Shown here in pieces: positions 28,279 through 31,871 of a stretch of 33,356 bases of DNA. Within the stretch, counting starts at the first letter, position 1, and each line of letters starts with the position of its first letter. The notes under the pieces are model-generated. The model ran no database searches, was not told the origin of the DNA, and saw only the letters and a program-made list of their open reading frames with translations. Both the position numbers and the translations under genes were made by a program. The stretch comes from Akkermansia muciniphila (GTDB lineage Bacteria > Verrucomicrobiota > Verrucomicrobiia > Verrucomicrobiales > Akkermansiaceae). The stretch is taken from the NCBI GenBank assembly GCA_945883695.1, contig CAMCYK010000041.1, forward strand, positions 1 to 33,356, written 5' to 3'.

Positions 28279-28307
28279 AAAAAATCCCGGCGCCTTTCAG
28301 CTCCGGG
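28279..28307 (-). terminator. Intrinsic terminator downstream of the tRNA-Leu fragment
   Basis: On the - strand, CCCGG and CCGGG (28303-28307 and 28286-28290), with two further G-C pairs inside, enclose a short loop. They are followed directly by ATTTTTTG (six T, 28279-28284). It begins 23 nt beyond the tRNA 3' end and is oriented to stop its transcript. It is the best-formed T-run terminator in the window and appears to be the native terminator of the original tRNA gene. Confidence 0.75.
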
Positions 28308-28329
28308 CCTCGATGATTAGAAAGAACAT

Positions 28330-28380
28330 GCGCGCGAGAGGACTCGAACCTCCACATCCTTGCGAATACTAGAACCTGAA
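28330..28380 (-). tRNA. 3' half of tRNA-Leu(CAG), probable attachment-site remnant
   Basis: On the - strand the sequence gives an anticodon loop TTCAGGT (CAG at 28376-28378), the 3' half of the anticodon stem, a Leu-type variable arm (ATTC-GCAA-GGAT), a T arm with TTCGAGT loop and paired GGAGG/CCTCT stem, and CGCGCGC as the 3' side of the acceptor stem, with A as discriminator. The 5' half is absent: no GCGCGCG acceptor strand or D arm lies in the AT-richer DNA beyond 28381, and the anticodon stem loses a matching partner just past the loop. CCA is not encoded. This is the pattern left when an integrase-type element recombines within a tRNA anticodon loop. It is not a functional tRNA gene here. 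Confidence 0.75.
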
Positions 28381-28498
28381 TGCAGCTAAGCCACTGACTG
28401 CCAATCATCTGAATTCTCATAAGTCCTTAAAATTGCCCGAATCTGCCACAGAGGGGCAAGATGGATTGGAGCAATTTGGGGCACGAACGGGAATGTAT

Positions 28499-28517
28499 TT
28501 TGTCACCATTTGTCACC
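28499..28517 (+). repeat. Direct repeat TTTGTCACC x2, 10-bp period
   Basis: TTTGTCACC occurs at 28499-28507 and again at 28509-28517, spaced one helical turn apart, between the tRNA-Leu remnant and the first HTH gene. Tandem sites on one face of the helix are how excisionase-type proteins often bind next to attachment sites. The link is inferred from position only. Confidence 0.5.
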
Positions 28518-28584
28518 TATCGCCAATGAGTTACAAGAACCCGAGTTGCTTGCCAAAGCCCCAGTTGACAAGGCATTCACGGGC

Positions 28585-28786
28585 ATGGACCCGCACCCTA
28601 CCCCGCCGCGCCGCGAACTCGACCTCATGACCGAACAAGACCTCGCCCACCACCTCAAGGTCTGCCGCCCCCAGCTCTACAACTGGCGCGTTGCCGGGCT
28701 GATCCCCCTACTTCAAGCTGGGCAAGGCCGTCCGCTTCCGGGTGGCGGATGTGACCACTGCGATCGAGCGAATCAGGATTGGGTGA
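28585..28786 (+). pseudogene. Excisionase-like HTH gene, copy 1, frameshifted
   Basis: From the ATG at 28585 the frame reads ...RELDLMTEQDLAHHLKVCRPQLYNWRVAGLIP, a winged HTH of the excisionase/MerR-like HTH_17 type (LMTEQDLAHHL..CR.QLYNWR.AGLIP). At a run of five C (28704-28708) the frame shifts. Removing one C restores YFKLGKAVRFRVADVTTAIERIRIG and a stop at 28784-28786. The copy at 31085 has four C at this point and reads through correctly, which shows that the fifth C is an insertion or an error. It would be about 66 residues, a normal size for small phage- or island-type excisionases and plasmid regulators. It lies about 200 bp inside the presumed island end. Confidence 0.7.
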
Positions 28787-28922
28787 GCCGACGGCCTCGC
28801 GGATGATCTCGCCCGACAAGACGAACCCGACCATCCACCCGGCTACAAGAGGCCCATCCAACCGGTGCATTCCTGGCACCGGAAAATCTTGTGAACGCCG
28901 CTGCATGGGCTAGGCTCCAGCT

Positions 28923-29246
28923 GTGAAAGCAAAAGACGAAGCCAGAAAGCCCCTGCGGGGACGCCCCAAGGTTCCGGTAAAGAAGCGGATCAACACCCGC
29001 TTCCCGGAATCCCTGGCAGCAAAGATCGAGTATGCGGCGGCCATCCGAGGCGTCGCTGTCGCAGCTTTCATCCAGGAGGCCGTGGCCGCGCAGGCCGAGC
29101 AGGTCATCGAGGCCGAGTCCCGCTGGCAACTGACCCGTGACCAAGCCGCCGCGGTGACGGCCCTCATTGCCAGCCCGCCCAAGGCCAACAAAAAGATGGT
29201 GGAGGCCGCCAAAGAAGCATCGCGCCATGTCGTCCTACGCGATTGA
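28923..29246 (+). CDS. DUF1778 (TacA-like) antitoxin
   Basis: A 107-residue protein started by GTG. A basic lead (KPLRGRPKVPVKK) precedes a ribbon-helix-helix domain (RINTRFPESLAAKIEYAAAIRGVAVAAFIQEAVAAQAEQVIE), then a toxin-binding tail (WQLTRDQAAAVTALIASPPKANKKMVEAAKEA), the layout of DUF1778 antitoxins. These bind and neutralise a GNAT toxin and repress their own operon through the RHH domain. The stop overlaps the start of the GNAT gene by 20 nt, the usual antitoxin-first order. The lead is longer than usual, and a later start cannot be excluded. No clear ribosome binding site or operator was seen upstream. Confidence 0.82.
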   Translation: MKAKDEARKPLRGRPKVPVKKRINTRFPESLAAKIEYAAAIRGVAVAAFIQEAVAAQAEQVIEAESRWQLTRDQAAAVTALIASPPKANKKMVEAAKEASRHVVLRD

Positions 29247-29748
29247 GCGCCTCTCGGCCGACCACGACCGGGCCGCCTTCACCAGCGGTCTCGACTCGGT
29301 CGATCGCTATCTGAGGGAGACCGCCCGCGGGCATTCGGAAAAGGGCGTGAGCATCACCCGCGTGCTCGTTGGTATCGATGCTGCACCCCCCAAGCCGATC
29401 TTGGGCTTCTTCACGCTGTCCCCCATCCTGATCGAAGCCAAACCGTGGCCCAAAGCCCCCAAGGGGCTGCCGAACCAACCGGTTCCCGCGATCTTGCTCG
29501 GACGGCTTGCGGTGGCCGCGACGCACCAGGGCAAAGGGCTCGGCGCGATGCTGGTCGCCACCGCCTGCCAGATTGCCACCGAGACCATCACCCTCGCCGG
29601 CGGAATCGGCTTGGTTGTGGACGCCGCCCATCCGCAAGCCGCGTCTTTTTACGCCAGCTTCGGTTTCAAGGCGGTTTCCCCCGGCGGCCTGAGGATGTTT
29701 CTGCCGGCGAAATCCCTCAAAACCGGGGTCGAAATCAGGAGGGAGTAG
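29227..29748 (+). CDS. GNAT-family toxin (TacT/AtaT-like)
   Basis: A 173-residue acetyltransferase. The N-terminus YAIERLSADHDRAAFTSGLDSVDRYLRETA is the hallmark of TacT/AtaT toxins (the F.CG...LD.YL pattern, here F.SGLDSVDRYL). The acetyl-CoA loop is HQGKGLG (100-106), and Tyr142 in AASFYASFGF is the catalytic tyrosine position. LLGRLAVAATHQG and the end segment RMFLPAK also match. Such toxins acetylate the amino group of charged tRNAs and block translation until bound by the DUF1778 antitoxin. The ATG at 29227 overlaps the antitoxin's end by 20 nt, so the pair is co-translated. It looks intact and is the only undamaged module of this part of the island. Confidence 0.85.
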   Translation: MSSYAIERLSADHDRAAFTSGLDSVDRYLRETARGHSEKGVSITRVLVGIDAAPPKPILGFFTLSPILIEAKPWPKAPKGLPNQPVPAILLGRLAVAATHQGKGLGAMLVATACQIATETITLAGGIGLVVDAAHPQAASFYASFGFKAVSPGGLRMFLPAKSLKTGVEIRRE

Positions 29749-29789: not shown

Positions 29790-29882
29790 CTCCCTCTCAT
29801 TCACGGATCAATCTGCCATCAGAGGCTTCACGTGCGGGCTGCCGATGTCGTCTCAGCGATCGAGCGGATGAGGATCGGGTAG
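29790..29882 (+). pseudogene. Excisionase-like HTH gene, copy 2, 3' remnant
   Basis: From about 29829 the frame reads HVRAADVVSAIERMRIG and a TAG stop at 29880-29882, nearly the same as the end of copies 1 and 3 (RFRVADVTTAIERIRIG and RFRAADVASAIERMRIG). The N-terminal HTH is missing or too altered to recognise, although LPLIHGSICHQRL just upstream may be its eroded remainder. It is a relic between the GNAT toxin and the metallophosphoesterase genes. Confidence 0.6.
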
Positions 29883-30051
29883 CACACCCTCACCCCGATT
29901 GAGAAAGATCCGACCTGCAACTGGCGCATGGTCGGCAGGAAACGATAAAACCAAGAGAACGGTATCAGGCTGCCGAGGTATTGATCCGGGCCTGCCACAG
30001 CGCCAGAATGCCTCCGGACCAATGCGGCAGATTGCCGGCCAACTCCACGAA

Positions 30052-30796
30052 ATGAAGATCCACGTCCTCAGCGACCTCCACCTCGAGTTCGGCCCTATCA
30101 CCCTACCGCGGGTCGATGCCGACCTCGTCGTGCTGGCAGGTGACGTGCACACCAAACGGAACGGGATCCCGTGGATCCGGCGGACATTCCCCGAAGTCCC
30201 TGTGATCTACATCGTCGGAAATCACGAGTTCTACGGCGAGAAAGCTCCGGGCCTGCTCGACAAGCTCAAGTCGGAGACGGGCGGCAGCAACATCCGCGTC
30301 CTTGAGAACGAGTTTGTGGAAATCGGCGGATACCGGATTTTCGGTGCCACCCTCTGGAGCGATCTTGCCCTTTTCGGGGACCCGCAGACCGGGTCCATCG
30401 AGGCGCTTGCGATGAACGACTACAAGCGCATCCATCACTCGGTCACTTATCGAAAGCTGCGGCCGGTGGATACCAGGGTTAGCCACCTTGATTCAGTGAG
30501 GGCCATCGAGTCCTTCCTCGCGACCGGCGATCCCCGCCGCTCGGTCGTCGTCACCCATCACGCACCGTCCGTTCACTCGCTGCCGCCAGATCCGCATTCA
30601 GGATCCGGTCAGCTGCGCCTACGCCTCTCGCCTGGAAGTTTTGATCCAAAGGACAAGGCCACTGATCTGGATCCACGGGCACATCCATCATTCGCAGGAC
30701 TACGCGGTTGGGGAAACGAGGATCATCGCCAACCCGCGGGGGTATGCCGACAGTCCAAACGACGACTTCAGCCCGGAGTTGGTCATCGAGCTTTAG
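30052..30796 (+). pseudogene. Metallophosphoesterase with a frameshift
   Basis: From the ATG at 30052 the protein begins MKIHVLSDLHLEFGP, then DLVVLAGDVHTKRNGIPW and VIYIVGNHEFYG: the D-x-H, GD-x-H/K and GNHE metal-binding motifs of calcineurin-like phosphoesterases. VVVTHHAPSVHSLPP follows. Just after this, near 30590, the frame breaks. One base fewer gives DRIQDPVSCAYASRLEVLIQ, IWIHGHIHHSQDYAVGETRIIANPRGY and FSPELVIEL with a stop at 30794-30796, restoring the final GH-x-H motif. The restored length is 247 residues, normal for the family. As written, the protein would lose the last metal-ligand motif and be inactive. Its natural substrate is unknown; such genes are common accessory genes on islands. 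Confidence 0.75.
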
Positions 30797-31084
30797 CACG
30801 CAAAGATTCCGGCCCGCAGCGAGTGCCCCAAGGTCCCTATGAATCAGAAATATTGCCATCACCACCACCCTGGAAGAGTGGCAAAGCGCGACCTTCCTAG
30901 GCAGCCACGCGCCTCGTGAGTGGCGGCGCCAATGACCCAATGGGCCTAAGAGCATTCTCCGAGGTAAGCTTTGACCACCGAGCAAGAGGCCAAAGCACTT
31001 TTCCGGGTCGGCAGGTAAACTCCTAGATTGATACGCTACCTTACGGTCCCTAGGCATGGAAGAGGATCAGGCGGTCGTGCAATC

Positions 31085-31207
31085 TGTCGCCGCCAACTCT
31101 ACAACTGGCGCATCGCCGGGCTGATCCCCTACTTCAAGCTGGGCAAGGCGGTGAGGTTCCGGGCGGCCGACGTGGCCTCGGCAATCGAGCGGATGCGGAT
31201 TGGGTGA
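31085..31207 (+). pseudogene. Excisionase-like HTH gene, copy 3, 5'-truncated
   Basis: The frame gives CRRQLYNWRIAGLIPYFKLG, then KAVRFRAADVASAIERMRIG and a TGA stop at 31205-31207, closely matching the frame-corrected copy 1 in both protein and DNA. Upstream of the first Cys the likeness is lost at once (RHGRGSGGRAI instead of the LMTEQDLAHHLKV expected), so the first helix of the HTH is missing. An ATG at 31056 lies in another frame. It is probably a recombination remnant. Confidence 0.65.
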
Positions 31208-31871
31208 GGTTCAAACCCTCTTGGATGGCGGATCGGCAGGGAGGCCTGCCGGAGCTGCGCTTTTCTTTGATTTCATGGGCATTGGTGCGTTGTGGAGCTA
31301 GCTTGATGACGTAGGGATCGTGGCGCTGAACGGCCGATCTTTGTGAAATCCGTGTGGAATCGGAGGGATTTTGTCGCGGAACTCGGATCGATTCCCGCCC
31401 CTGTCCGCCACCCGCCCTCCGGTGTTCCGGAAGTCTTGGCAGTGGTGGCAAAAGGCTTGTCCATCTGTCACACCTTTGCCAGATCGGCGAGTCGGATCAA
31501 GATCCGATTGCCACGTCGAGCGGTCCGCTCCAGTCTCTCCCGCATCGCATGGTTCGAGTCGCATTCCTTACCGAGTTCTTGCCGGAAACCCGCCCAGGCA
31601 TCGCAGCAGGGGTTCCCGCGGTTGACGGGGACAGCGCCACGAGGTGGGCAAGGCGTTGGGGTGTTCTGTAAGACGTAGGCGATCTTTTCCCGTGAAGCGA
31701 CGCAATGGGGGCCAAGTAATCTGGAACGGAGGGTGCGCCCGTGGGATGTCCGGCGAGCTTTGTTCCCCCTGAGTTCAAGGGAGTTCAATCGCCGAGAAGC
31801 CGAATCTGCTTCGTTTTCCGAATGGGTTGGCACGGCCAGAGCCATTGGTTGGCGTGTAGCGTTCTCTTGAG
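31208..31871. other. 664-bp stretch without recognisable genes
   Basis: Several open frames of 80-125 codons exist on both strands but overlap one another and have Arg/Ser/Pro-rich, family-free translations. No start with a ribosome binding site, no transposase motif and no terminal inverted repeat was seen. It probably is decayed DNA between the third HTH remnant and the RHS/lipoprotein cassette. A GC-rich to AT-richer change occurs near its right end, about 31880. Confidence 0.4.

Follow-up and report, generated by a model that had tools for sequence, protein, structure and literature searches.

A tRNA-Leu(CAG) fragment in Akkermansia muciniphila very probably marks the excisionase-side edge of an integrative island with relatives in Verrucomicrobia

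Results

The stretch of DNA analysed here (the window), the 33,356 nucleotides of contig C41 from an Akkermansia muciniphila assembly of 391 contigs and 6.3 Mb (GCA_945883695.1), very probably contains the attR, or excisionase-side, edge of an integrative island lodged in the anticodon loop of tRNA-Leu(CAG), with its partner integrase on contig C194. Sequence comparison leads to this reading because repeat pairs mark the ends of such elements and because both ends of the same element are present in a relative, whose integrase sits next to tRNA-Leu(CAG). An island edge at this tRNA, formed by recombination in the anticodon loop, had been predicted from the window alone, and it is now backed by both junctions, the empty site, the uniqueness of the tRNA and the integrase. 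The element is a well-known kind of mobile DNA, a tRNA-targeted integrative island, of which the exact edge, target and partner could be fixed from raw sequence. The window edge lies on one contig (which stops inside an RHS gene) and C194 and C297 are separate contigs, with the interior of the element split across contigs; C41 and C194/C297 are taken to be the ends of one physical element. The features of the window are listed in Table 1.

Table 1. Features at and beyond the proposed island edge in the window
Feature	Position	Strand	Basis
Native tRNA-Leu(CAG) intrinsic terminator, chromosome side	28279..28307	-	Homology in G007/G009/G006/G008, fold
3' half of tRNA-Leu(CAG), displaced fragment at probable attR	28329..28381	-	Sequence, shuffles, agreement with L126/L127
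Element terminal spacer, core to repeat pair	28382..28498	.	87% match to G004:C9; tRNA-Lys sibling only from 28486
Paired direct repeat TTTGTCACCATTTGTCACC, probable integrase/excisionase arm-type site	28499..28517	+	Excisionase-side spacing, 10 bp period
Excisionase-like HTH gene, frameshifted in C-run at ~28704-28708	28585..28783	+	69-74% identity, two frames, to C28:37505-37702
TacA1-type antitoxin-like gene, cargo	28923..29246	+	PF08681, E 4.5e-12
GNAT acetyltransferase, TacT-like partner, cargo	29227..29748	+	PF13508, E 1.9e-8
Excisionase 3'-end relic 2	29835..29880	+	85-89% identity to G004:C9 and C28 excisionase genes
Calcineurin-like metallophosphoesterase-like ORF, cargo	30022..30900	+	PF00149, E 4.7e-6
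Excisionase 3'-half relic 3	31082..31208	+	91% identity to G004:C9 excisionase gene over 127 bp
Repeat common to tRNA-Lys sibling interior, beside truncated integrase (C48)	31224..31869	.	88.6% over 650 bp
RHS core and variable C-terminal end, truncated at contig end	32472..33356	-	Sequence

A displaced tRNA half and its native terminator

The tRNA fragment is 53 nt long and runs from the last anticodon-stem base and the anticodon loop (TTCAGGT) to the discriminator A at 28329. Read on the minus strand from 28381, its letters are ATTCAGGTTCTAG-TATTCGCAAGGATG-TGGAGGTTCGAGTCCTCT-CGCGCGC-A, in which the loop is followed by the 3' anticodon stem, the variable arm, the T arm, the acceptor strand CGCGCGC and the discriminator. 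Compared by eye with the intact tRNA-Leu(CAG) genes at loci L126 and L127, it agrees with their 3' half. Shuffled windows gave 0 matches to the fragment at ≤3 mismatches, and no whole tRNA was found in the window by ARAGORN or, as expected for half a tRNA, by Rfam. The half gene lacking its 5' portion, as it had been described on this strand, is therefore real by its sequence, the shuffles and ARAGORN.

The terminator on the 3' side of the fragment is made up of a hairpin (28286-28307) and a T-run (28279-28284). Its fold energy taken alone is unremarkable (-14.5 kcal/mol, z -1.45), and its identification comes from homology to what immediately follows the intact tRNA-Leu(CAG) genes of relatives. 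Four genomes of the same genus (G007, G009, G006 and G008) have an intact tRNA-Leu(CAG) that runs straight into a homologous terminator (G007 AGTCCCGGAGCTGAAAGGCCCCGGGATTTTTTGT, window GGCCCGGAGCTGAAAGGCGCCGGGATTTTTTGT), so the terminator side can be assigned to the native chromosome, and these genomes present the empty site. It had been anticipated that island-free relatives would join the tRNA directly to this terminator, and this part of the expectation held; none of the four carries the fragment without an island. The second part, that a hybrid kinase to the left of the terminator would be a conserved neighbour there, did not hold, as the kinase is not conserved beside tRNA-Leu(CAG) in the relatives fetched. 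Its sole match, in G011, is 32% identical, lies in the opposite orientation and is typical of kinase paralogs, and kinase synteny was dropped; the native side is consequently identified by the terminator alone.

The integrase end

The only 5' half of tRNA-Leu(CAG) in the genome is found on contig C297, where the sole intact copy of the gene (C297:85-168) lies at the contig end. The gene upstream of it is also upstream of tRNA-Leu(CAG) in most of the four relatives with an empty site, and its downstream side consists not of the terminator but of foreign DNA common to C194. The two contigs overlap over the first 137 bases of C297, with the tRNA 3' half and 84 bp downstream of it identical. C194 encodes a complete tyrosine integrase of 450 aa (C194:10435-11784; Pfam PF00589, E 2e-7) that starts ~60 bp from the tRNA half. 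The original prediction had placed the element above position 28380 and had called for a matching intact tRNA-Leu(CAG) with an adjacent tyrosine recombinase at the far end; both are present in this genome, the integrase beside the intact tRNA, on contigs separate from the window.

A repeat pair links the ends

A repeat pair of the form TTTGTCACC-N(1-4)-TTGTC occurs at exactly four sites in the 6.3 Mb (reversed control, 0), each of which is an element end: window 28499, C28:37419, C48:16025 and C194:11753. The first and last of these are the window edge and the C194 integrase end, and the other two are both ends of a sibling element at tRNA-Lys. C48 carries an intact tRNA-Lys(TTT) and an integrase that shares 58% identity with the C194 enzyme; C28 carries a tRNA-Lys 3' fragment, then the repeat pair, then an intact HTH gene, and this end is 79% identical to window 28486-28790. 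Because the same paired-end anatomy recurs at the four sites, the genome holds two sibling elements. The period of the repeats is 11 bp at the integrase ends and 10 bp at the sites followed by the HTH gene. At the integrase start the pair is read in two reading frames and is therefore unlikely to be a by-product of repeated amino acids. The paired repeats may bind integrase or excisionase.

The same two ends are found in the relative G004. Its integrase, 90% identical to that of C194, lies directly 3' of an intact tRNA-Leu(CAG), and elsewhere in its genome an excisionase end (G004:C9) is 87% identical to window 28387-28790. The tRNA fragment of the latter is not seen, since an insertion-sequence-like stretch abuts the excisionase end.

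From these ends a route of integration can be proposed. The C194 tyrosine integrase would recombine the attP of a circular element with attB in the chromosomal tRNA, attP being predicted to consist, in order, of the integrase start, an arm-repeat pair of 11 bp period, the tRNA-Leu 3' half, a spacer of ~117 bp, a second such pair of 10 bp period and the excisionase-like HTH gene. On integration the chromosomal 5' half would gain the 3' half of the element and so form the complete tRNA gene of C297. The displaced native 3' half would end up, together with its terminator, at the far end, now window 28279-28381, from where the element would extend rightward from 28381.

Excisionase-like relics, cargo and a crowded insertion site

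The small HTH gene of the window sits at the arm opposite the integrase and is a candidate excisionase; an intact copy is found on C28. Among named models, the excisionase-like HTH protein (L095:12503-12706) comes closest, below cut-off, to NF047737 (MAD1 HTH), the NCBIfam model of MAD1 from the methylation-associated defence system. Since the window copy is frameshifted, the element is probably impaired in driving its own excision unless a further copy assists. The two further relics of such genes (Table 1) suggest that several elements of the family came and went at this site. Beyond the excisionase-like gene, the adjacent genes with PF08681 and PF13508 make up a putative TacAT-type pair, and RHS-type ORFs follow the integrase in the G004 element as well. 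The content foreseen for the island, namely HTH excisionase relics, a toxin-antitoxin pair (here a TacA1-type antitoxin and a GNAT protein by Pfam) and an RHS cassette whose core carries a variable C-terminus at the contig end, was thus recovered. A dispersed repeat (GATGGCGGATCGGCAGG...) lies beside an excisionase relic in the window and beside a truncated integrase at C48:14233-14878, and parts of it are also found on C267, C117, C109, C36 and C166.

On the other side of the tRNA half of C194 lies a second integrase-like N-terminus, similar to one that adjoins a tRNA-Leu fragment in G011; the G011 insertion goes on with ORFs of phage-like appearance (helicase- and tail-like) and is probably a prophage. 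The second N-terminus (L036, 11901-12570) has an in-frame TGA near its start and points away from the tRNA half. As C194 joins two integrase-bearing ends, a single island is too simple a description of the site, and the tRNA-Leu(CAG) anticodon loop is a shared insertion site. Judging from the assembly branch, C297 may represent the locus without the prophage and C194 the same locus with it.

This crowding bears on whether the window edge and the C194 integrase belong together. The fragment could derive from a different, older island, such as another family member or the prophage, with the C194 integrase belonging to a second, tandem element at the tRNA. The junction of two integrase-bearing ends at a single tRNA half, the likeness of the second integrase to that of the G011 prophage next to the same tRNA fragment, and a frameshifted excisionase gene followed by two relics would all accord with such a history. 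It is nevertheless considered unlikely, as the window edge bears the repeat pair and HTH gene that partner the C194 integrase family rather than the prophage type, and G004 has the same two ends at high identity (edge 87%, integrase 90%).

Variable arm and position of the crossover

The variable arm of the window fragment reads ATTC-GCAA-GGAT, as opposed to GGGG-GCAA-CCCC in C297, C194 and the closest relatives; by eye, both can form paired stems. Given a crossover in the anticodon loop, this difference fits a native half displaced by that of the element, and the window arm would then be the old native allele. It follows that either the native allele here was unlike that of the relatives or an earlier exchange had occurred. 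A crossover in the T-arm would instead make the window variable arm element-derived, and it would explain why the fragment and C297 do not differ in the T-arm and over most of the acceptor stretch, and why the variable arm of the fragment agrees with the element-bearing tRNAs of L126 and L127. However, at all junctions of the family, be they Leu, Lys or Arg, the anticodon loop is where tRNA identity begins, and the 3' half of C194/C297 is common to the G004 element, which leaves a T-arm crossover quite improbable. The tRNA-Leu(CAG) variable arm also varies strongly among close relatives (G001-G017 and others) with pairing kept, and repeated exchange of 3' halves with mobile elements has possibly driven these changes.

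That the fragment is a degenerate tRNA gene deprived of its 5' half by a mere deletion or rearrangement, without integration, can practically be dismissed: a tRNA half alone could result from deletion, but the break falls at the anticodon loop, as it also does in C194, C28, G011, G026, G105 and G103, the fragment adjoins foreign DNA that carries arm repeats and an excisionase-like gene, the 5' half with a new 3' half is present on C297, and such a loss is already contradicted by the empty site of the relatives and the restriction of the repeat pair to element ends.

Comparison with known systems

Islands integrated at tRNA genes have been mapped with Islander, and about half of them use the anticodon site (2083 of 3919; PMC4383910). 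The Islander definition places the tRNA and its fragment on one replicon, 2-200 kb apart; here they lie on separate contigs of the assembly. Four further features expected of such islands were found: a displaced 3' tRNA fragment in the correct orientation (28329-28381, minus strand), a restored intact cognate tRNA with element DNA downstream (C297:85-168), an uninterrupted attB in relatives, and a tyrosine integrase in the island, beside the tRNA half in C194 and, as the G004 ortholog, beside tRNA-Leu. As in Islander class 'A' (anticodon-centred; PMC4383910), the 3' half of the element restores the tRNA at one end and the displaced fragment lies at the other, tandem insertions occur at one tRNA, and the integrase is inside the island, here adjoining the intact tRNA. 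In contrast to the general class, both arms here carry a conserved repeat pair with fixed but different spacing.

The arrangement may also be compared to lambda-type integrase/excisionase systems. In such systems the core is flanked by arm-type repeats, and a small HTH protein adjoins one of the arms. By analogy, putative arm repeats flank the core here and the small HTH gene lies beside one arm, whereas one repeat pair is seen per arm and the spacing differs between the sides.

An integrase family across Verrucomicrobia

Related loci numbered 53, all in Verrucomicrobia records, and the integrase starts 46-95 bp from a tRNA in 30 of the 42 loci examined. The targets comprise at least seven isoacceptors: Leu(AAG) at 9 loci, Leu(CAG) at 8, Lys(CTT) at 5, and Lys(TTT), Met(CAT), Arg(ACG) and Leu(TAG) at 2 each, with the two Leu(TAG) sites in the opposite orientation. 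An integrase tree, built without the C48 integrase, groups by tRNA target: it needs 7 changes for its 8 labels, which is the minimum. Ends and core are found together in two cases. G103:C220 holds an integrase end, a tRNA-Leu(AAG) 3' half and an excisionase end in one stretch, and G059:C50 holds an integrase end, a tRNA-Arg(TCT) 3' half and an excisionase end in a row, with a different repeat motif, of the TTGTCGGAAA type, at both ends.

Defence genes lie beside the excisionase end of family elements in two relatives. PglZ, BrxD and BrxHI-like genes (BREX-like) are found there in G004:C9 (L179), and a DruE-like helicase (Druantia-like) is near the excisionase gene in G059:C50. These elements resemble BREX and Druantia defence islands, whereas the window copy shows a toxin-antitoxin-like pair, a phosphoesterase and RHS, and no complete defence system.

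A limited literature search found the general Islander class and no description of this integrase family, which thus seems undescribed, as far as such a search, which cannot prove it, can tell. Taken together, the loci likely represent an undescribed, partly defence-carrying family of verrucomicrobial islands in which one integrase lineage was retargeted among at least seven isoacceptors, with the anticodon loop as target wherever a junction is readable, repeat pairs of 11 and 10 bp period whose letters change together at both ends, and a swap of the variable arm of the host tRNA-Leu. The attP anatomy of the family is clean and recurs at many tRNA genes, and no such description was found for the phylum. 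As the clades of the integrase follow both the tRNA target and the repeat variant, the family offers a natural test set for target change in tyrosine integrases.

One clade of the integrase family (L138, L144 and L166) has no tRNA beside the integrase. The anticodon Leu(AAG), unusual for bacteria, was seen in L190 (G000:C29) and at the Leu sites of L128-L131, L136, L143 and L148. The idea that integration creates this anticodon was dropped, as AAG recurs at Leu sites of the family in many genomes and in the tRNA-Leu of G000 C29.
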